Assembly (NCBI GenBank): GCA_016178045.1
Contig: JACOUE010000040.1
Coordinates: 1-45,146, forward strand
DNA from: Chloroflexota bacterium
GTDB lineage: Bacteria > Chloroflexota > Dehalococcoidia > SM23-28-2 > JACOUE01
DNA: 45,146 nucleotides
Direction: 5' to 3'
Both the position numbers and the translations under genes were made by a program. Positions 24,486 to 42,448 of this stretch are shown in pieces (position 1 is the stretch's first letter; the number at the start of each line of letters is the position of its first letter). A model generated the notes under the pieces. The model had not been told where the DNA came from, ran no database searches, and saw only the letters and a program-made list of their open reading frames with translations.

Positions 24486-25373
24486 CTACCAGCTGCGCGG
24501 GAGCGACGGGTCGCCGCCCTTGCCGCCCTCGGCGAAGGCGAAGCTGCCGTCGTCCTGGCGCACCACCCAGCGGCCCACGTCCGTGATCTGGCCCCGCTGG
24601 TCAAGCTCGGTGCGCAGGAGGGCGAGCTCATCCTCGGTGGGCGTCTCCAGCGTCTCGATCTTGGCGGCGATCAGGGGCTGGAACGACATCTCCGCCAGCA
24701 CGTCGTCCACCGTCACGAAGGGCGAGACGCCGGCAAGCCGAAGGCGCCGCTCCTGGTAGTCGAAGACGGCCCAGGGGGTGACGACGCGCCAGGGGCCGGT
24801 GCCGCGGGGCAGGCCGGCGCGCTCCCGCGCCCCCTCCGACCCGTCGAGGAACCCGGGCGAGGAGACGAAGTCCACCCGCGGCACGAACTTCCGCTTCTGC
24901 TGGTCGGTCATGAGGATGGTGCGCCAGCAAAGGGAGGCGATGGAGTCGGCGCCGCCGGGCCCGCCGAAGCGCCGGTGCTCGCCCTCGTAGTCGCCCAGGG
25001 CGGTCGAGTTGATGTTGCCGTAGGGGTCGACCTGGAGTGTGTTGAGGATACCGCAGTCCATGAGGCCCACCTGGGCCTGGAACCCGACCGAGTTCATCGT
25101 CCCCCACTGGAGGGCGCGGTAGCTGGCGCGGGCGCTGACCATGGTCATGATCGGGTCCAGCGGGAGCATAGGCTCCGGGGCGAGGACGCCGTCCTCGGTC
25201 ACGTAGATGGCGCTGGGGGCGTACAGCTTCTTGCCCAGCAGGATGGCGGCCATGGGGGAGCCGCCGCCCGCTACCCAGTAGGTCCTCCCGTCCTCGATCA
25301 TGCGGGCGACCAGGCAGATCTGGTGCTCGCGCTCGTTGAAGTTGGCGGCCTTTTCCCCTTTGGGCTTGTTCAT
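24486..25373 (-). CDS. CoA-transferase family I, beta subunit (GctB/IpdB-like)
   Basis: A 295-aa subunit of a two-part CoA-transferase or related CoA-thioester hydrolase. Seen: ICLVARMIEDGRTYWVAGGGSPMA (CoA-binding Gly loop), the VTEDG stretch with E60 in the place of the family's catalytic glutamate region, DPYGNINSTALGDYEG, FGGPGGADSIASL and VTPWAVFDYQERRLRL. The pattern is closer to glutaconate CoA-transferase B and IpdB of steroid-ring degradation than to acetate CoA-transferases; substrate not determinable. Its ATG overlaps the stop of the selenoprotein-like gene (ATGA), and the alpha subunit lies beyond that gene, so all three form one operon. Confidence 0.87.
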   Translation of the reverse strand: MNKPKGEKAANFNEREHQICLVARMIEDGRTYWVAGGGSPMAAILLGKKLYAPSAIYVTEDGVLAPEPMLPLDPIMTMVSARASYRALQWGTMNSVGFQAQVGLMDCGILNTLQVDPYGNINSTALGDYEGEHRRFGGPGGADSIASLCWRTILMTDQQKRKFVPRVDFVSSPGFLDGSEGARERAGLPRGTGPWRVVTPWAVFDYQERRLRLAGVSPFVTVDDVLAEMSFQPLIAAKIETLETPTEDELALLRTELDQRGQITDVGRWVVRQDDGSFAFAEGGKGGDPSLPRSW

Positions 25374-25897
25374 CTGTCGCTTACCTCCCCGGCCCTCAGA
25401 AGGGGCAGGAGTTGCCGGCGGAGCTCCTCGCTCTTGCCGATAACCGGGCAGCCCGTCGCGATCAGGGGCGAGGGGGCGGCCTCCCAGCGCGCCTCCTCAC
25501 CGTAGAGGTAGTATACATCCCAGGCCACGGGGCCTTGTAGCGGCCCTTCGAAGCCCACGTGCTCGGCGAACCAGCGGCCCGCTGTCCTACTCTCGTCCCA
25601 CAGGTGTACCACCCGCGGATCCGACAGGACTTTTCCGCTCCACTTCGAACGCTCGTCGCCGGGGTACATGGGGAGCCAGACGGCGTAGACCTGGAGCTTC
25701 GCGGACGCGTGCTTTTCGAGCACCTCCTCCTGCACCCAACTGGCGCCGGCCGAGCAGACGGGTCACGTCGGCGATAGCAGCAGGATGAGGCGAGGGGAGT
25801 CCGCGTCCCGGTTGAACAAGTCGCGCAGCGTCCCGATGTCGCGCAGGTCCGCGAGAGCGGGCCGTCCGGGGTTAGCCGCTCCTGAGTGTGGTCCCAT
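25370..25897 (-). CDS. Thioredoxin-like protein with in-frame UGA: candidate selenoprotein (UxxC)
   Basis: From ATG 25897 one frame runs 176 codons to the TGA at 25372-25370, with a single internal TGA at 25765-25763 (codon 45). The sequence around it is RLILLLSPT-U-PVCSAGASW: a hydrophobic beta strand ending in a U-x-x-C motif exactly where a thioredoxin-fold protein has CxxC. The downstream part (residues 49-175, with VYAVWLPMYPGDERSKW, VAWDVYYLYG and a second cysteine in IATGCPVIG) is plainly coding and continues the fold. No other frame explains it. A stem-loop follows the UGA directly (25757-25724). The gene lies between the two subunits of a CoA-transferase and overlaps the next start by four bases. 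A Cys-to-stop mutation or an error is the alternative. Confidence 0.72.
25724..25757 (-). other. Candidate bacterial SECIS stem-loop
   Basis: Five bases after the UGA, CUGCUC (25757-25752) can pair with GAGGAG (25729-25724, one mismatch); above an internal loop GCGCC (25746-25742) pairs with GGUGC (25736-25732), leaving an AGUUG apical loop. The loop carries a GU and lies 21 bases from the UGA, in the range usual for bacterial SECIS. GC-rich DNA folds easily, so this is supporting rather than decisive. Confidence 0.45.
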
Positions 25898-25919: not shown

Positions 25920-25941
25920 CCCTCTCCCTCGAGGGAGAGGG
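25920..25941. repeat. 22-bp perfect palindrome in the CoA-transferase operon
   Basis: CCCTCTCCCTC followed by its exact reverse complement, three bases after the stop of the alpha subunit gene and 22 bases before the selenoprotein-like start. In RNA it is an 11-bp stem without a T-run. Could be a short intergenic repeat or a processing hairpin that tunes subunit expression. Confidence 0.7.
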
Positions 25942-25944
25942 TAA

Positions 25945-26925
25945 TCACGGTGCGTATCCGTCCTTGATAGTCGCGCGGGCCTTCAGGCCCTCCAGGTTCT
26001 GCTCCCCCACCAGCTTCTCCAGCATCTCCGCGTGGCTGGAGACGCTGTGCACCCACTTCTGGAGGTACTGCTCGACGAAGCCGCGCAGGGTGGCGCCCAC
26101 CACCTCGATGACGTGAGGAATGTCCGAGGCGTAGCGGCCCTGCATCTCGCCCGGGTAAGCGCCGAACGGCAGGTGGACCACGGCGTCGACGACGTAGTAG
26201 GGGATGGTGGTGCGGCCGGGGTCGCGCCTTATCTCCTCCGTGTCGATGATCTCCTCCGTAGAGACGATCACCTTGCGAGAGGCCAGGGCGGCCTCGGTGT
26301 GGGAGATGCCGGTGCCGAAGATGCGGGCGTTGCCGTAGACGTCGGCCTGGTGCACGTGGATGAGGGCGACGTCCGGGTTCAGGGCGGGGACGATGGTGAT
26401 GGGCTCGCCGGCGTAGGGGTCGGTGATGAGCTTGGCGCCGGAGTAGTTGAAGCCGTCGGTCCCGCCGAAGGAGCGGACGGGCAGGAAGGGGAGGCCCATG
26501 GCCCCGGCCATGAGACGGTTGGTCATCACCACGTTGGAGTACTCGTAGGCCTTGACGCGGCCTTCACGGACGGCCTGCTCTACCACCGGCCCGAAGAGGA
26601 AGAAGCCGACGTCCAGCTTTGAGGCGCATCCGGCCCCTACCAGCAGGGCCGCCGACACCCAGGTGAACTTGGCGCCCACCCACAGGTCCTTTTTCCCCTG
26701 GCGGATGACCTCGCGGATGAGGGCGGAGGGGCCGCGCTGGAGGTAGTTGCACTCGTAGACGATGTAGTCGCCATCCTGCACGAGCTTCTCGACGGCCTCC
26801 TTCTCCGACATCAGCTTGGGGACCAGCGCCCGGTTCTTGTGATCGCGCACCCACTCGCGGAAGCCGTCCGGGTCGACCTTGAGGTAATCGCCCCGCCCTT
26901 CGGCCAGTATCTCCAGCGTCTTCAT
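25945..26925 (-). CDS. CoA-transferase family I, alpha subunit (GctA/IpdA-like)
   Basis: A 326-aa alpha subunit. Seen: MSEKEAVEKLVQDGDYIVYE at the start of the domain, RGPSALIREVIRQGKKDLW, the Gly-rich VGAGCASKLDVGFF, PFLPVRSFGGTDGF, and IVPALNPDVALIHVHQADVYGNAR (a family hallmark). With the beta subunit it would move or hydrolyse CoA on a carboxylic acid, probably in acid or ring breakdown. ATG 26925 is chosen because CAGGAGAGAGG precedes it; the upstream in-frame extension lacks a ribosome site. First gene of the operon alpha - thioredoxin-like - beta. Confidence 0.88.
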   Translation of the reverse strand: MKTLEILAEGRGDYLKVDPDGFREWVRDHKNRALVPKLMSEKEAVEKLVQDGDYIVYECNYLQRGPSALIREVIRQGKKDLWVGAKFTWVSAALLVGAGCASKLDVGFFLFGPVVEQAVREGRVKAYEYSNVVMTNRLMAGAMGLPFLPVRSFGGTDGFNYSGAKLITDPYAGEPITIVPALNPDVALIHVHQADVYGNARIFGTGISHTEAALASRKVIVSTEEIIDTEEIRRDPGRTTIPYYVVDAVVHLPFGAYPGEMQGRYASDIPHVIEVVGATLRGFVEQYLQKWVHSVSSHAEMLEKLVGEQNLEGLKARATIKDGYAP

Positions 26926-27021
26926 CGGCCTCTCTCCTGGGCTACAAACTCCCCTTCGTGGCGCCAACGGCAATAATCCCGCCTGGGTTGGCGGCTGTCA
27001 ATGGCCGTGGACGGCGCGCGC

Positions 27022-27771
27022 CTATTCGCGGTAGGCGTCGATGATGGCCGGTCCCCAGAGGGTGGCGACGATGGCGCCGAGGGCGAGGAAGGGGCCGTAG
27101 GGGATGTAGTCGCGCATCCTTACCCTCCTCGTCAGGAGCAGGAACGTGGAGACGATGCCCGCCGCGAACACCCCGGCGAAGAACCCGACAAGGACAGCGG
27201 GGAAGCCGGCCGTCAGCCCCATCAGGGCCAGCAGCTTGACGTCGCCGCCGAAGAACGCCTCCGTGCGGAACAGCGCCAGGCCGAACAGGGCGAGGAAGAC
27301 GCCGATGGCCACGGCCACGGCGCCGCCGACGACGACACCGGCGGCCCCGCGGTCTGGCCAGCCCCAGGCGAAGACGGCGGCGAGGACGATCGCCGGGTAG
27401 ACGATGCGGTTGGGGATGAGCCTGCGCTCCAGGTCGGTCACGGCGAGGGCCAGGAACAGGGTGGAGAAGAACCCGCCCAGGAGGGCCGCCCCGAATCCCT
27501 CAAGGGCGTAGTAGGCGAGGACGAAGGCGGCGGCGCCACCCGTCGGCAGGACAAGGGCCCTGAGAGGGAGCGCCTCGCCGCAGTCGCGGCAGAGGCCGCG
27601 GCTCCAGACGTACCCCACGTACGGCATAAGGTAGACGCCGTGGATTTCGCCCCGGCAGGCGGGACAGCGGTATATCGGGCCGGTGACGAGGCTTTCCGAG
27701 TATGAGCGGTCGAGGAGGATGTCCAGCAGGTGCCCAAACAGAAGCCCGACGAGGGCTGGGATGAGAACCAT
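27022..27771 (-). CDS. Prepilin peptidase (type IV leader peptidase, A24 family)
   Basis: A 249-aa membrane aspartic protease that cleaves and may N-methylate prepilins. The two catalytic aspartates are D113 (VTDLERRLIPN) and D177 (GGDVKL), in the usual membrane frame. The N-terminal part carries two CxxC pairs (C36/C39 and C61/C64), the zinc motif of full-length PilD/TcpJ-type enzymes with a methyltransferase loop; dedicated TadV enzymes lack it. About seven hydrophobic segments. It lies divergently from the Tad pilus operon, whose Flp and TadE/G leaders are its likely substrates. Confidence 0.92.
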   Translation of the reverse strand: MVLIPALVGLLFGHLLDILLDRSYSESLVTGPIYRCPACRGEIHGVYLMPYVGYVWSRGLCRDCGEALPLRALVLPTGGAAAFVLAYYALEGFGAALLGGFFSTLFLALAVTDLERRLIPNRIVYPAIVLAAVFAWGWPDRGAAGVVVGGAVAVAIGVFLALFGLALFRTEAFFGGDVKLLALMGLTAGFPAVLVGFFAGVFAAGIVSTFLLLTRRVRMRDYIPYGPFLALGAIVATLWGPAIIDAYRE

Positions 27772-29953: not shown

Positions 29954-30847
29954 ATGCTCAAGACAGAAACTCTGACCAAAGGAAACCGGGGCATGCTATT
30001 TCTGGCCCTGTTCTTCGGCGTCATGTTCGCCGTCCTCGTCACGGTTTACCTCTCGCGAGCGGGCGGGGGGACGGATGGCGGTGGGGCCGGCGTCCCTGTG
30101 GTTGTGGCCGCCCAGGACATCCCGGCGGGCACTCAGATCACCAAGAACATGCTCACCATCAAGAAGATGCCCTCGTCGCTGGTCCTGCCCGACGGCTTCG
30201 AGGACCAGGCGGACGTGGCCGGCAAGGTTGCCGTCTATCCCATCACCGCCGGCGAGCAGGTCCTGGGCGGCGACTTCGCGGCCGGGCTTCTGGAGAACGC
30301 TTCTCTGGCTGACATCGTCCCGGCTCGGCGCCGGCTGCTGCCCTGCGAGTCCCCCAACCCCAACTGCGGCCTGAGGGCCGTCTCCGTCGGGATTGCCGAC
30401 GACACCGCCAGCGGGGGCCTCATTCGTCCCGGCGACCACGTGGACGTGATCCTGGCCCTGCACGACGCTTCCGCCGTGACCGTCCTCCAGGACGTTGAGG
30501 TGCTGGCCATCGGCTCCGAGGTGACCCCGAAGGTCACCACGGGGCAGACGGACCCGGGCGTCAACCCGGACTCCGTGGACCAGCGCCAGGTGGTGCAAGA
30601 GGGCGACGAGAACCCGCAGGCCACCACGGCGACCCTCGCCGTCACGCCGGCGGAAGCGCAGGTCCTGGCGGCGGCCGAGGAGTTCGCCGAAGGGACAAGG
30701 TCGGCGGGCTTCGACTGCGAGGGCTCCATCCGCCTGACCGTCCGGAACCGTAACGCCCAGCAGTCGGAGCCGATTGAGGCGCGCATCGTACGCCTCGACG
30801 GGCGGGGGCCCTGCGGCGAGTATTTCACCGGTATCTGGGGAAGCTAA
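29954..30847 (+). CDS. cpaB: Flp pilus assembly protein CpaB/RcpC
   Basis: A 297-aa protein with one N-terminal membrane anchor (about 13-35) and a SAF domain (VVVAAQDIPAGTQITKNML, about 48-67). RAVSVGIADDTASGGLIRPGDHVDVIL follows, as in CpaB/RcpC. In diderms CpaB works with the secretin CpaC; no secretin gene is present here, in line with a single-membrane envelope. GGGAGG ribosome site before ATG 29954. Confidence 0.88.
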   Translation: MLKTETLTKGNRGMLFLALFFGVMFAVLVTVYLSRAGGGTDGGGAGVPVVVAAQDIPAGTQITKNMLTIKKMPSSLVLPDGFEDQADVAGKVAVYPITAGEQVLGGDFAAGLLENASLADIVPARRRLLPCESPNPNCGLRAVSVGIADDTASGGLIRPGDHVDVILALHDASAVTVLQDVEVLAIGSEVTPKVTTGQTDPGVNPDSVDQRQVVQEGDENPQATTATLAVTPAEAQVLAAAEEFAEGTRSAGFDCEGSIRLTVRNRNAQQSEPIEARIVRLDGRGPCGEYFTGIWGS

Positions 30848-30854
30848 GAAAGTC

Positions 30855-32105
30855 ATGGCCCGCAACCCCAAAGTCATCGTCGTAGACCAGGACCAGATAG
30901 GCCGGTCCGAAGTCCAGAAGATGCTGGCCCTCTCGGGCTTCGCCGTGCTGGGCGAGGCCGGCTACGGGATCGAGGCCCTGGCCCTGGCCAAGGAGGTGGC
31001 CCCTGACGTCTGCGTCGTGGCCCTGGAGGAGCCCGTTGTGCGGGCCCTCCAGACGGTTGAGTCGCTGGCCGACCTCCTGCCGCAGTCGCCGATCATCGTC
31101 TACTCCTCCCTGAAGGACCAGGCGACGATACGTCGCGCCATGCAGGCGGGGGCGAAGGACTACCTGAACGCTCCTCTCAAGGAAGAGGAGCTGATCAGCT
31201 CCGTCCACGCCGCCCTCGCCCAGGAAGAGCGGCGGCGCCAGCGGCTGGCCGGCGACGCCGAGGAGCCGGTGGCGGTGGGCACGGTGATCACGGTGTTCGG
31301 GGCCAAGGGCGGCATCGGCAAGACGACCATCGCCGCCAACCTGGCCACAGCCCTGGTGCAGAAGACGAACCAGTCCGTGGTGCTGGTGGACCTGGACACC
31401 CGTTTCGGCGACGTGGCGATCCTCATGGACGTCCCGGTGGAGCGCAGCATCGCCGACCTGGCCGCGGCCGAGGAGGAGATCGACAAGGAGATGGTGCAGA
31501 GCTGCCTCTACACCCACAACACCGGCGTCACCGTCCTCCCCGCGCCCATCCGGCCGACCGAGTGGCGGAGCGTCCACGCCGGCCACATCGAGCGGATCGT
31601 GAACCAGCTGGCCCAGAGCTACGACTACGTCATCCTGGACGTGCCGGGGACGTTCAACGACATCGTGGCCCGGGCCCTGGAGCTGGCGACAATCCTCCTG
31701 CTGGTAGCCACCGTGGACATGGCCAGCCTGAAGGACACCCTCCTCGCCATCGACATGCTGCGTTCGTGGAACTACCCGCAGGACAAGATAAAGCTGGTGA
31801 TCAACGCCACCAACGATGCCAACGACGCGAACCCCAACGACGTGAAGCGGATGCTGGGGCGGGACGTCTTCTGGTTCATCCCCTACGACCGGAACATCAG
31901 CGCCGCTACCCAGGTGGGTATGCCTATCGTGGTGGCCAAGCCGCAGTCGAAGGCGGCGGCCGCCATGACCGACATGGCGCAGGCGTTGGCGGGCATCCGG
32001 AGGCAGCAGCCGCCGTCGCAGCAGAAGCCGCCGAGCGGTAGAGGTCTCATCTCGCGAATCATCAACCAGCGGTCGGAAGAGAAGACGGAAGTAAAGGTGG
32101 AGTAG
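30855..32105 (+). CDS. tadZ: TadZ/CpaE-like localisation ATPase with degenerate receiver domain
   Basis: A 416-aa protein: residues 5-125 form a receiver-like domain, 140-380 a MinD/ParA ATPase. The deviant Walker A is KGGIGKT (151-157), then VVLVDLDTRFGDVA and YDYVILDVPG. The receiver has VVDQDQIG acid residues, but the phospho-acceptor position reads VCVVALEE (A56 instead of Asp), so it is a pseudo-receiver, as in many TadZ. TadZ places the pilus machine at the cell pole. The start is ATG 30855, seven bases after the cpaB stop. Confidence 0.9.
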   Translation: MARNPKVIVVDQDQIGRSEVQKMLALSGFAVLGEAGYGIEALALAKEVAPDVCVVALEEPVVRALQTVESLADLLPQSPIIVYSSLKDQATIRRAMQAGAKDYLNAPLKEEELISSVHAALAQEERRRQRLAGDAEEPVAVGTVITVFGAKGGIGKTTIAANLATALVQKTNQSVVLVDLDTRFGDVAILMDVPVERSIADLAAAEEEIDKEMVQSCLYTHNTGVTVLPAPIRPTEWRSVHAGHIERIVNQLAQSYDYVILDVPGTFNDIVARALELATILLLVATVDMASLKDTLLAIDMLRSWNYPQDKIKLVINATNDANDANPNDVKRMLGRDVFWFIPYDRNISAATQVGMPIVVAKPQSKAAAAMTDMAQALAGIRRQQPPSQQKPPSGRGLISRIINQRSEEKTEVKVE

Positions 32106-32109
32106 CGTC

Positions 32110-33465
32110 ATGACCCAGTGGCAGACGGAGCGAATGCGGGGGGCCCCGGTGCGGCCGGAGGTGGGGTCGGCGCGTACGACCCCGGGCCGCTACAACGAGG
32201 ACATGGAGGGGCTGATCTTCCGCCTCCATCAGCTGCTCATCGAGGAGCTGGACGCCGACCAGATCGGCGCCATGGGCCGCGAGGAGCGCCGCAAGGTGGT
32301 GGAGCAGGCCGCCCAGACCCTTCTGCGGCGGGAGATGCCCACGGTGGGTGGCATTACCCGCGACCAGATCGTGAGCCGCGTGGTGGATGAGGTCGTGGGC
32401 CTGGGGCCCATCGACGCCATGATGCGCGACGCGTCCGTCTCCGAGGTGATGGTCAACCACGTCGACGAGGTGTACTTCGAGCGCGAGGGCATCATCTACC
32501 TGAGCGACGTCCGCTTCCGCGACCAGGACCACGTCATGCGCATCATCGAGCGCATCGTGGCCCCCCTGGGCCGCAGGGTGGACGAGTCGTCCCCGATGGT
32601 GGACGCCCGCCTTCCGGACGGCTCGCGGGTGAACATCGTCATACCGCCGGTGGCGCCCAAAAGCCCCAGCATCACCATCCGCAAGTTCCGCGCCGACAAG
32701 ATGACGATGCAGGACCTGATGGCGGCCGGCACTATCACCGAGGACATCGTCGGCTTCCTGGAAGCGTGCGTTAAGCTGCGGATTAACATCCTCATCTCGG
32801 GTGGAACCGGCACCGGTAAGACGACGTTCCTCAACGCCCTCTCCGCCTACATCCCTGATACCGAGCGGATCGTGACTATTGAGGACCCGGTAGAGGTGAA
32901 GCTCCAGCAGCCGCACGTGGTGAGCCTGGAGGCCCGGCCGTCGAACCTGGACGGCCGCGGCGAGATCACCCAGCGGGACCTCCTGCGCAACTCCCTACGC
33001 ATGCGCCCGGACCGCATCATCATCGGTGAGGTGCGCGGTCCCGAGGCATTCGACATGCTCAACGCCATGAACACGGGCCACGAGGGCTCCCTCTGTACCG
33101 TCCACGCCAACTCGCCTCGCGACGCCCTGGCCCGTATCGAGAACATGGTGCTGATGGCGAACCTGGATCTGCCCGACCGCGCCATCCGCGAGCAGGTGTC
33201 TTCGGCCCTGCACCTGATGATCCAGCTCGCCCGCTTCAGCGACGGCGTGCGCCGCGTCACCCACATCACGGAGGTGGCGGGCATGGAGGGCCTGGTGATC
33301 ACCTTGCAGGACCTCTTCCGATTCGAGCAGACGGGCGTGGGGGCCGAGGGCGCCATCATGGGTGCGGTCCGGTCGACGGGGATCCGTCCCACCTTCGCCG
33401 AGCGGTTCGAAGTGGCGGGCATCAAGCTTCCGGACAACGCCTTCATGGCCCGGGTGGGGAGCTAG
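32110..33465 (+). CDS. tadA: Tad secretion ATPase CpaF/TadA
   Basis: A 451-aa type II/IV secretion ATPase that powers Flp pilus extension. Landmarks: [24 protein letters not shown] (N-terminal domain), Walker A GGTGTGKT (231-238), [10 protein letters not shown] (Asp box), [11 protein letters not shown] (Walker B) and the His box [13 protein letters not shown]. All catalytic parts are intact. Four bases follow the tadZ stop. The next gene, tadB, starts one base after its stop. Confidence 0.95.
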
Positions 33466-39785: not shown

Positions 39786-41117
39786 CTAACCTTCCGTGGT
39801 TTCCACCAGAAAAAGGCGCCACTCGTCGGGGACGCCCCTGAGGACGTGAGATCCCCGGTCTTGGAATCGGATGCCCGAGCCGGCGACCAGGTCCTTGACC
39901 GTGTGCGACACCAGCACTTCGCCGGGGGCGGCTTTAGCCGCCACCCGGGCGCCGATATGGACGGCGATGCCGCCAACGTCCTCGCCCATCAGCTCGCACT
40001 CGCCGGTATGGAGGCCGGCCCTGACCTCGAGGCCCAGTGATCGGGCGGACTGGCCGATCGCGCAGGCGCAACGAACACCGCGGGCGGGGCCGTCGAAGGT
40101 GGCCAGGAAGCCGTCGCCGGTGGTCTTTACCTCGCGCCCGCGAAAGCGGGCGAGCTCTTTGCGCGCAAGCGAGTTGTAGCTGTCCAGGAGGTCACGCCAG
40201 CGGCGGTCGCCCATCTCGGCGGCGCGCTGGGTGGAGCCGACGATGTCGGTGAAGAGGACGGTGGCGAGCACCCGGTCGGGATGGGGGGTTGGGCGGACGC
40301 CGGTCAGGAACTCTTCGATCTCGTCCAGGATGGCGTCGCCGTCGCCGACCCAGGGCAGGTGGTCGTCGCCGGCCATCTCGACATATCTGGCGCCAGGGAT
40401 GCGCGATGCCGTGTAGCGGCCGCCTTCCACGCGGGAGATCTGGTCGCCTGTCCTATGGAGGACTAAGGTGGGGACACGGATGGTGGGGAGGATGCCACTG
40501 ATGTCGATGTCGTAGTTCATGAGGAGGAGGGCGCCGGCGGAGCCCGGGCTGGCCGATAGGCGCTGAAGCCGGGTCCACCACTGCTTGAAATGGGGGTCGC
40601 TGGCTAGGCTCGGGGCGAACCGGGGCAGGTCGACCCCCTGACCCCAAGTCCGCTCTATTGCCTCCATCGCCTTCTCCATCTGGTCATCGCTGCGAGGCGG
40701 CAATATCGCAGGGCTGGGCCGCCAGGTGCCGTACATAGCCAGAGCGGAGGTTCTTTCGGGGTAGGTAGCAGCGAAGAGAGCGGACATGGTGGCGCCCTCA
40801 CAGATGCCGAACAGGGCCGCCCGTTCCGATTCAGCGGCGTCCAAGACCGCGCGGACGTCATCCATGCGCTGTTCCAGCGGGGGGATCTCGCTGGGGGAGA
40901 CGCGGTCGGAGAGCCCCGTCCCCCGCTTGTCGAACAGGAACAGGCGTGCGAAGGAGGCGAGACGGTTATAGAAGCGGGCGAGGGACGGCTCTTCCCAGCC
41001 GCACTCCAGATGTGAGACGTACTGGGGGACGACCACGAGGTCGAGGGGGCCGTCCCCCACCACCTGGTAGGCGATGTGTACGTCGCCGCTCTTGGCGTAC
41101 TTCGTCTCGGGCTTCAT
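39786..41117 (-). CDS. Alpha/beta-hydrolase fused to class III nucleotide cyclase
   Basis: A 443-aa two-domain protein. The N-terminal alpha/beta hydrolase (about 8-255) contains DKRGTGLSD and the nucleophile elbow GICEG with C106 in place of the usual Ser, and PTLVLHRTGDQ before a probable His in GDDHLPW. The C-terminal cyclase (about 265-440) has the metal aspartates FTDIVGST and TTGDGFLATF, and GLHTGECEL, so catalysis is expected. Such hydrolase/adenylyl cyclase fusions are frequent in Actinobacteria and Chloroflexi; the ligand is unknown. ATG 41117 is chosen because the longer frame upstream is low-complexity and overlaps glcF. Confidence 0.88.
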   Translation of the reverse strand: MKPETKYAKSGDVHIAYQVVGDGPLDLVVVPQYVSHLECGWEEPSLARFYNRLASFARLFLFDKRGTGLSDRVSPSEIPPLEQRMDDVRAVLDAAESERAALFGICEGATMSALFAATYPERTSALAMYGTWRPSPAILPPRSDDQMEKAMEAIERTWGQGVDLPRFAPSLASDPHFKQWWTRLQRLSASPGSAGALLLMNYDIDISGILPTIRVPTLVLHRTGDQISRVEGGRYTASRIPGARYVEMAGDDHLPWVGDGDAILDEIEEFLTGVRPTPHPDRVLATVLFTDIVGSTQRAAEMGDRRWRDLLDSYNSLARKELARFRGREVKTTGDGFLATFDGPARGVRCACAIGQSARSLGLEVRAGLHTGECELMGEDVGGIAVHIGARVAAKAAPGEVLVSHTVKDLVAGSGIRFQDRGSHVLRGVPDEWRLFLVETTEG

Positions 41118-41158
41118 GCGTGCTCTCCAGGCAGGCAACCTACAGCGCTGCGCGCAAA

Positions 41159-42448
41159 TTATACCCCCGTCGTCTCGCGCTGGTAAGCCTCGTCCAGCAG
41201 CTCGACGACGTGGACGACCCGCCCCGGGAGCCGGTGGCGGCGCAGGCCCGCCTCCAGCTGGAGCATGCAGCCCGGGTTCGCCGTAGCGATGACGGCAGCG
41301 CCGGTGGCGCCGATGTCCCGCATCTTGTCGTCCAGCAACCGCAGGGACATCTCGCGGTTCGTCAGGTTGTAGACGCCGGCGCTGCCGCAGCAGCGGTCGG
41401 CGTGCTCCATCTCGACCAGGCGGAGGCCGGGGACGGCGGCCAGCAGGGCGCGCGGCGGTTTCGTGACCCGCTGGGCGTGGGCCAGGTGGCACGAGTCCTG
41501 GTACGTGACCTCCGCCTCCAGACGCCCCTGCGGCGCCGCGAGGGGAAGCTCCGCCAGGAACTCGGTGATGTCTTTGACCATGGCGGCCAAGCGCTCGGCC
41601 TTCTTGGCGTACTCGGGGTCACCGGCGAGCAGCTCGCCGTACTCCTTCATGGCGGCGCCGCAGCCGGCGGCGTTTACGACGACGGCGTCGAGCTCGGCGG
41701 CCAGGAAGGAGTCGACGTTGCGCCTGGCCAGCCGCTCCGCTGTGGGGCGATCGCCGTTGTGGGCGAAGAGGGCGCCGCAGCACGTCTGCCGGGGCGGCGC
41801 CAGCACCTCGCAGCCGTTTCGCGCCAGCACCCGCGCCGTGGCGTCGTGCACGCGGCCGTACACGAGCGGCATGACGCAGCCGGTGAGGAGCGCCACCCGG
41901 TGGCGCGGCGGGCCCTCCGGCTGGGCCAGGACGCCGGTTCGCCGGAACGTGCGGCCCGTCAGCCTCGGCGCGAGCAGAGAGAGGTCGCGCAGGGGCGGGG
42001 GGAACAGTCGCTCGACCAGCCAGCGCAGGCCCGACCGCTGGTACAGGCGGAGGAGGAGGGACGCCGCCTCGAGCCGGCCGGGGTGGGGGATGAGCTGTCG
42101 CAGGAGGAAAGCGCGCAGCCGCCAGGATAGCGGGGCTTTGCGGTTCGCGAGTATCTCGGCGCGGGCGCCCTCCATGATGCGGCCGAAGGGCACGCCCGAG
42201 GGGCATACGGCCTCGCAGTTGCGGCACTGGAGGCAGAGGTCCAAGTGGCCGACGGCCGCCGGCGTCGGTTCGATGCGGCCCTGGGCGATGGCCTTGATGA
42301 TATAGAGCCGCCCCCGCGGCGACTCTGTCTCCAAGTTCAGCGCGGTGTAGGTGGGGCAGTGCTGGAGGCAGAGGCCGCAGTGAACGCAGCGGCTCAGGTC
42401 CGCCTCGGCCGGCGCGTAGGGGCCGGAGAAGCCTTTACCGCCCGCCAT
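41159..42448 (-). CDS. glcF: Glycolate oxidase-type iron-sulfur subunit GlcF
   Basis: A 429-aa (Fe-S) subunit that passes electrons from the flavin subunits. Two ferredoxin motifs are intact: CVHCGLCLQHCP (21-32) and CLQCRNCEAVCP (about 72-83). Two CCG domains follow (TGCVMPLVYGRVHD...CCGALFAHNG and DSCHLAHAQR...DRCCGSAGVYN). The ATG shares one base with the glcE stop, so the genes are translationally coupled. Members of this family oxidise glycolate or D-lactate; which one is not evident. Confidence 0.92.
   Translation of the reverse strand: MAGGKGFSGPYAPAEADLSRCVHCGLCLQHCPTYTALNLETESPRGRLYIIKAIAQGRIEPTPAAVGHLDLCLQCRNCEAVCPSGVPFGRIMEGARAEILANRKAPLSWRLRAFLLRQLIPHPGRLEAASLLLRLYQRSGLRWLVERLFPPPLRDLSLLAPRLTGRTFRRTGVLAQPEGPPRHRVALLTGCVMPLVYGRVHDATARVLARNGCEVLAPPRQTCCGALFAHNGDRPTAERLARRNVDSFLAAELDAVVVNAAGCGAAMKEYGELLAGDPEYAKKAERLAAMVKDITEFLAELPLAAPQGRLEAEVTYQDSCHLAHAQRVTKPPRALLAAVPGLRLVEMEHADRCCGSAGVYNLTNREMSLRLLDDKMRDIGATGAAVIATANPGCMLQLEAGLRRHRLPGRVVHVVELLDEAYQRETTGV

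Follow-up and report, generated by a model that had tools for sequence, protein, structure and literature searches.

Selenocysteine (Sec, U) at the first redox position of thioredoxin (Trx)-type proteins is known from several described families. According to the available part of PMC2398784, the GOS_C selenoprotein has a Trx-like fold and a UxxC motif, and the accessible portion of PMC13188914 (Table 1) lists a Sec-containing thioredoxin, a thiol:disulfide interchange protein, TlpA (UGC) and a Redoxin-family protein, each with a Trx-type domain and with Sec as the first redox residue, next to the SaoT and HUIPC-type selenoproteins (NF040730, NF047660), which are Trx-like and feature UxxC. The gene described here resides in a stretch of DNA of 45,146 nucleotides (the window), and a joint reading of the evidence points, with a probability of roughly 0.87, to a genuine selenoprotein of an apparently undescribed family, most likely a thiol/disulfide-type redox enzyme.

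The Trx-like fold and UxxC are shared with GOS_C (NF045500, Omp28_seleno), as far as the available description of the latter goes, but NF045500 spans 377 positions, as opposed to the 175 residues of the window gene. Identity with GOS_C was rejected, as NF045500 matches in the window's genome lie elsewhere and none of 12 family members matches the model at E<=0.1. SaoT and HUIPC-type proteins are similar in being Trx-like and UxxC, and differ in that their NCBIfam models match 0 of the 12 members at the same threshold; the Trx-type selenoproteins found in the accessible Table 1 of PMC13188914 differ in like manner, PF00085, PF13098, PF08534 and PF00578 matching 0/12 (E<=0.1). The AhpC-TSA, Redoxin and Thioredoxin models of Pfam match neither the window nor these 12 of the 36 members, for which no NCBIfam or Pfam match is better than E 0.018; the window protein itself has no significant match in Pfam or NCBIfam. 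No entry of the 119-family catalogue, in the portion of PMC13188914 available, was identified with the family, one entry ('Redoxin family protein'; HEU0032618.1, MBA3499694.1) having been compared through PF08534 only, which has no match. Among the matches listed, the family was not recognised in the available parts of the selenoprotein literature, PMC9312934, PMC2398784, PMC12013277 and PMC5029168 included. The view of the original prediction, in which this was not a described selenoprotein, holds against Pfam, NCBIfam and the accessible Table 1 of PMC13188914, with the proviso on the Redoxin entry, and the family is apparently undescribed.

Features of the window at and around the candidate selenoprotein gene
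Feature	Position	Strand	Remarks
Candidate selenoprotein gene	25370..25897	-	175 residues + stop; Sec = residue 45, Cys48; basis: frame and homologues
Putative Sec UGA codon in SPT-U-PVC	25763..25765	-	TGA in 35/36 family genes
bSECIS-like hairpin GCGCC-AGUUG-GGUGC	25732..25746	-	covariation; codon-shuffle control
CoA-transferase family protein (PF01144)	24486..25373	-	ATG overlaps selenoprotein stop by 4 bases (ATGA)
CoA-transferase family protein (PF01144), upstream neighbour	25945..26973	-	47 bases from selenoprotein ATG
Perfect 22-base palindrome CCCTCTCCCTCGAGGGAGAGGG	25920..25941	.	between upstream CoA-transferase-family gene and selenoprotein

The reading frame goes from an ATG (25897-25895), with an in-frame TAG just 5' of it, to a terminal TGA (25372-25370) on the minus strand, and is open end to end except for a single internal TGA (25765-25763), around which the residues read LILLLSPT-U-PVC. 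A standard gene caller had been predicted to shorten the gene to a start at 25735; the mechanical list of open reading frames does so, giving 25370..25735 only (121 aa, GTG start), with loss of the active site. The call of just the part located 3' of the TGA is what favours a real stop codon, in which case the locus would be a pair of short ORFs, a gene in decay or the product of a sequencing error. This is very improbable, as 35 of the 36 genes, which come from 35 genomes, have TGA at this codon, and purifying selection acts on both flanks, pN/pS being below 1 in the 22 codons 5' and in the 50 codons 3' of the TGA in 8/8 pairs chosen by the analyst. Even less probable is that TGA is read as Trp or Gly throughout the organism: TGA is the terminal codon of both the selenoprotein frame and the gene upstream of it, genes for Sec are present in the genome, and the lone family member devoid of the TGA has Cys. 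A stop codon, gene decay, sequencing error and an alternative code were accordingly rejected in view of the TGA kept in 35/36 genes, the selection on both sides and the presence of Sec genes. That one frame codes on both sides of a single UGA, as originally claimed, is thus borne out by homologues and by pN/pS ratios; their alignment runs through the UGA, with U in 35/36, Cys in 1/36 and conserved flanks, and no homologue was seen to end at this codon.

Relatives were monitored in several genome sets. They reside in 10 of 400 genomes drawn from the phylum (single-sequence query) and in 24 of 393 drawn from the class (profile search), the genome of the window being included in both counts, and in 4 of 64 genomes from the group of locus L026, the relative in Gemmatimonadota. 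Two of the 30 candidate stretches obtained by scanning species genomes are relatives, one from a Gemmatimonadota and one from a Latescibacterota MAG. In viral contigs 19 stretches matched a pattern, none of which was confirmed as a relative, and plasmid searches yielded no relatives. The window's genome is the sole representative of its taxonomic family in the genome set. Upon removal of duplicates (L028, L030, L025, L052, L094, L095) and of a weak partial match (L097, E 8.7e-4, restricted to profile positions 79-127 and devoid of the active site), the final set consists of 36 genes in 35 genomes, with TGA in 35 and TGC in one at the Sec codon.

SPT-[U/C]-xxC is found at the Sec site in every one of the 36 genes. 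The alignment and the tree comprise 34 rows, L021 and L051 having been left out as frame-shifted; residue 45 is written as Cys in all rows, and its codon was counted separately in the 36 genes. S42, P43, T44 and C48 are invariant in the 34 aligned members, and Pro directly follows U in 15 of them, so that the wider motif is SPT-U-xxC and the family signature SPT-U-xx-C-xxG ... WD-x-[YF]. The window gene falls in an 11-row clade (clade I; support 100/99). The lone Cys member (L023, TGC) is found amid Sec members in a clade of 8 rows (support 96/95), a placement that fits a change from Sec to Cys, though this is one case in a tree rooted at midpoint.

The machinery for Sec was found in the genome carrying the window (contig C53 of 85 contigs, 2.03 Mb, 89.78% complete), in which tRNA-Sec with anticodon TCA (79.3 bits), selA (566.8 bits vs. 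a cut-off of 267.9), selB (308.4 bits, or 332.5 when joined in frame with its neighbour, vs. 242.25) and selD (372.7 bits vs. 125) all score over their cut-offs. The absence of such machinery, which would have spoken against Sec, was not seen. The selD gene (L012, contig C16 of this genome, G000) itself has a TGA, in GGUASK, and is likely a selenoprotein gene too; the sequence fits the UxxK motif, by which Sec-containing SelD is denoted in the accessible Table 1 of PMC13188914.

Among the other family-carrying genomes, counted without G762, tRNA-Sec is over cut-off in 29 of the 33 searched, and tRNA-Sec and/or selA (E<=1e-3) in 32 of 33; in the remaining carrier, G561, neither selA (E<=1e-3) nor tRNA-Sec over cut-off was found. 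At the same threshold, selA is present in 20 of the 24 carriers of the class, including the window's genome and G512, in which the match is weak (2.1e-15), vs. 271 of the 393 genomes of the class overall. The presence of selA was hence rejected as a discriminator of carriers, being uninformative because the class is rich in Sec. In the second query set, selA is found in 11 of 11 genomes, one of which (G305) is common to the class set. The claim that the UGA denotes Sec has thus stood, with TGA in 35/36 genes, TGC in 1/36 and the Sec machinery in the genome.

The bSECIS model, as given in the available text of PMC13188914, features a G in the first two loop positions, a spacing of 16-37 nt, a stem of 4-16 bp and a loop of 3-9 nt; the free-energy criterion is <= -7.5 kcal/mol. 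The hairpin following the UGA in the window is made up by a 5 bp stem and an AGUUG loop with G at loop position 2, with 21 nt from the UGA to the apical loop, and the conserved hairpin agrees with the model in loop G, spacing, stem and loop size. Covariation was monitored in the 20 of 36 genes in which the hairpin is in the same register, leaving out L022-L024, L032-L038 and L046-L051, where it is in another register or different. In the 20 genes 98 of 100 cells are paired, vs. 29-58% with the partner slid. Columns 21 and 33 are hardly constrained by the protein, because both are third codon positions, and hold C-G in 15 genes, G-C in three and U-A in two; all 20 are Watson-Crick pairs, an excess greater than at any other of the 136 third-position pairs. 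L017 and L039, the rows with U-A, are in different clades of the tree, and therefore at least these U-A changes look independent. When columns are fixed in 35 genes and the register is not chosen, standard pairing at the five stem positions is found in 28, 31, 33, 27 and 20 genes, respectively; pairing is incomplete because 16 of the 35 genes use another register or hairpin. In L032 and L037 the hairpin is displaced by one register and made of other bases, and in L024 there is a hairpin with the same AGUUG loop.

Averaged over the 36 genes, the best bSECIS-like hairpin has a free energy of -8.4 kcal/mol, vs. -4.4 in synonymous-codon shuffles, the corresponding figures being -2.2 and -1.8 in a control region 60 nt downstream. 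Taken singly, 9 of 36 genes reach P<=0.05 in the shuffle test (median 0.10) and 0 of 36 in the downstream control, and the hairpin alone reaches -7.5 kcal/mol in 19 genes, vs. 4 downstream. The shuffle test is not significant for the window's own sequence (P 0.285). In the 48 nt following its UGA the minimum-energy fold (-17.4) is a hairpin other than the conserved one, as is the best contiguous bSECIS-like hairpin (-6.4 kcal/mol). The Cys member L023 retains a hairpin of another sequence (-8.9, P 0.09). No Rfam match was detected in the window.

The thioredoxin-like nature of the protein, put forward in the original prediction, is backed by fold prediction, in the absence of a significant sequence profile. 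Searches against sequences of solved structures gave weak matches only, the best being at E 0.055 in one search and, in another, at E 0.17 to the protein disulfide oxidoreductase 1a8l; among 12 members, weak, non-significant matches to Trx-fold proteins include YtxJ (0.025), BrxC (0.051) and MauD (0.055). The fold was modelled from 3 sequences, with residue 45 as Cys. The best of five models has a mean pLDDT of 74.5 and a pTM of 0.77 (pLDDT of the others 71.4, 66.0, 59.9 and 59.5), and shows the strand-helix order of the thioredoxin fold, residue 45 being located after strand 36-41 and just before helix 46-61. The claim that the UGA in SPT-U-PVC takes the place of the first redox Cys after a beta strand agrees with this model, as with the motif found in all 36 genes. 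In Foldseek, ranks 1-4 are held by the four chains of the DsbE entry 3gl3 (best E 3.4e-5, TM 0.56-0.57/0.68-0.70), and ResA 1su9 is at rank 6 (E 1.6e-4, TM 0.53/0.66); these matches support a predicted thioredoxin-like fold, nearest to DsbE.

Rank 5, one place ahead of ResA, is held by human Prx6 (E 1.2e-4, TM 0.47/0.39), and glutathione peroxidase (GPX) and tryparedoxin peroxidase folds come below ResA. The protein might on this account be a peroxidase-type selenoenzyme, in which Sec45 would reduce peroxides and Cys48 would act as the resolving residue, as in atypical 2-Cys peroxiredoxins. The reading is rather improbable, as the DsbE chains rank higher, with better TM-scores, and the motif PxxxTxxU, given for Sec-Prx in the accessible part of PMC13188914, is absent, Thr being directly before U in the family.

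Similarity to TlpA/ResA/DsbE (CcmG) proteins resides in the predicted fold, with the redox pair at the helix start as in 3gl3 and ResA 1su9, in an N-terminal hydrophobic stretch carried by members of clade I, and in a DsbD_TM protein adjoining the gene at locus L057. The family differs from them by SPT-U before xxC, by Sec in 35 of 36 genes, and in that a cis-Pro before the third core strand was not seen in the alignment, the place having been located by strand order, not by coordinates. W126-D127 is found in 33 of the 33 rows with letters at these positions (the 34th row, L022, ends earlier), and Ala at 125 in 27 of 34. In the model, by strand order, the place near the start of strand 127-132, where a cis-Pro would normally stand, appears to be taken by Trp-Asp. 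An N-terminal hydrophobic stretch or a lipobox is present in 10 of 12 genes of clade I (the 11 tree rows plus L021), and for this reason a site of action outside the membrane is probable for many relatives, judging from their N-terminal sequences. The exceptions are L021, whose start is near a contig end, and the window gene, which lacks the hydrophobic stretch and whose product is probably cytosolic.

The neighbourhood of the gene varies among family members. In the window the candidate gene is flanked by two genes encoding CoA-transferase-family proteins, and the palindrome preceding it is found in single copy (0.01 expected). A partnership with CoA-transferases as the general role of the family was rejected, since the two window proteins have no match at the other 33 loci (tblastn E<=1e-3), where flanks differ and some contigs measure only 3 kb. 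Elsewhere in the window reside a type IV leader peptidase gene (27022-27771), RcpC/CpaB and T2SSE genes of the Flp-pilus type (29954-33465), and one frame (39786-41492) in which an alpha/beta hydrolase domain is followed by an adenylate/guanylate cyclase domain. Besides the DsbD_TM protein of L057, a related membrane protein is found at L056 and L058, that of L056 being weakly like ArsG-family transporters. Neighbours at the remaining loci are varied. A small protein devoid of Pfam or NCBIfam matches is encoded at two clade I loci, L055 (6647-7192, -) and L054 (6691-7149, -), the two copies being alike over a stretch of 53 residues in the C-terminal part. At L083 (1143-1718, -) a frame was noted which by eye resembles DUF3179, one of the listed selenoprotein families, and which is located near the family relative of G193.

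Genes for mercuric reductase (MerA) scoring over the NCBIfam equivalog cut-off (454.45) reside near 3 of 34 loci, L054 (511.7 bits), L058 (462.2) and L066 (522.6), which belong to genomes of three different families. At L058 MerA lies about 1.2 kb upstream on the same strand, at L066 about 1.4 kb away on the other strand. At L054 (G337:C1:609000-624000) a MerR-family regulator, a second member of the selenoprotein family (not of clade I), MerA, a protein of 153 residues and a clade I member follow each other on one strand; as calculated from coordinates, adjacent genes overlap at their ends, save after MerA, where about 370 bases intervene. Two paralogues of the selenoprotein family thus flank the mercuric reductase.

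This gene order, the occurrence of MerA in genomes of three families, a further MerR-family regulator at L056, and W126-D127 in all rows with letters there, speak for a Sec/Cys pair that would mainly capture and deliver a metal or metalloid, e.g. Hg(II), rather than exchange disulfides, the UGA still being read as Sec. Metal handling is a live alternative, and the main one, because MerA is near 3 of 34 loci and Trp-Asp appears in place of the cis-Pro, and is nonetheless unlikely. No MerA-like neighbour was found at 30 of the 34 loci (tblastn E<=1e-3, with contigs as short as 3 kb), and at the remaining one, L083, the match is a shortened flavoprotein scoring higher with another model; the 3/34 is a raw count and not an enrichment. 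MerR-family regulators were found at L054 and L056 only, and are under every equivalog cut-off, with CueR or CadR/PbrR scoring above MerR. A mer system beside the window gene was not detected, MerA and MerR-type queries having no match in the window. More specific, and a shade less likely still, is the idea of a nearly all-Sec family in which Trp-Asp took the place of the cis-Pro so that the Sec/Cys pair could hold soft metals, and which in some lineages would work on both sides of the membrane, capturing Hg(II) as the partner of MerA; if true, this would be a selenium-based arm of mercury detoxification.

The genuine selenoprotein of thiol/disulfide type is the preferred reading, and no result obtained speaks against Sec. 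Coding on both sides of the UGA, conservation of the UGA, the Sec machinery, the covarying hairpin and the predicted fold are all supported by computation, and on these sequence-based grounds the UGA at 25765-25763 very probably specifies Sec. A thiol/disulfide role is moderately favoured. What takes place in the cell, in terms of Sec insertion, chemistry and substrate, we infer as follows. SelB and tRNA-Sec(UCA), guided by the hairpin just 3' of the codon, would decode the UGA at residue 45 as Sec, and the resulting protein would be small, adopt a thioredoxin fold and carry its Sec45-x-x-Cys48 pair where a helix starts. The Sec45 selenolate would attack a substrate disulfide, or other oxidised or metal-bound sulfur; Cys48 would resolve the selenenylsulfide, and the pair would then be re-reduced by a cellular thiol system. 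The window's copy is probably co-translated with a CoA-transferase-family gene.

The mercuric reductase loci pose a direct question on selenium and mercury chemistry in bacteria. Gene callers in which TGA is a stop cut these genes at the active site, so that a redox protein conserved in several groups of bacteria would be missed or shortened. Cys/Sec pairs underlie one of the two main strategies of selenoprotein discovery, according to the accessible part of PMC13188914, and a recent tool, as described in the available part of PMC12013277, filters its candidates by requiring that the ten best matches include either a known homologue with Sec or two or more with Cys. Being nearly all Sec among the sampled genomes (35/36), the family could be missed by such methods, and more families of this kind may therefore exist.
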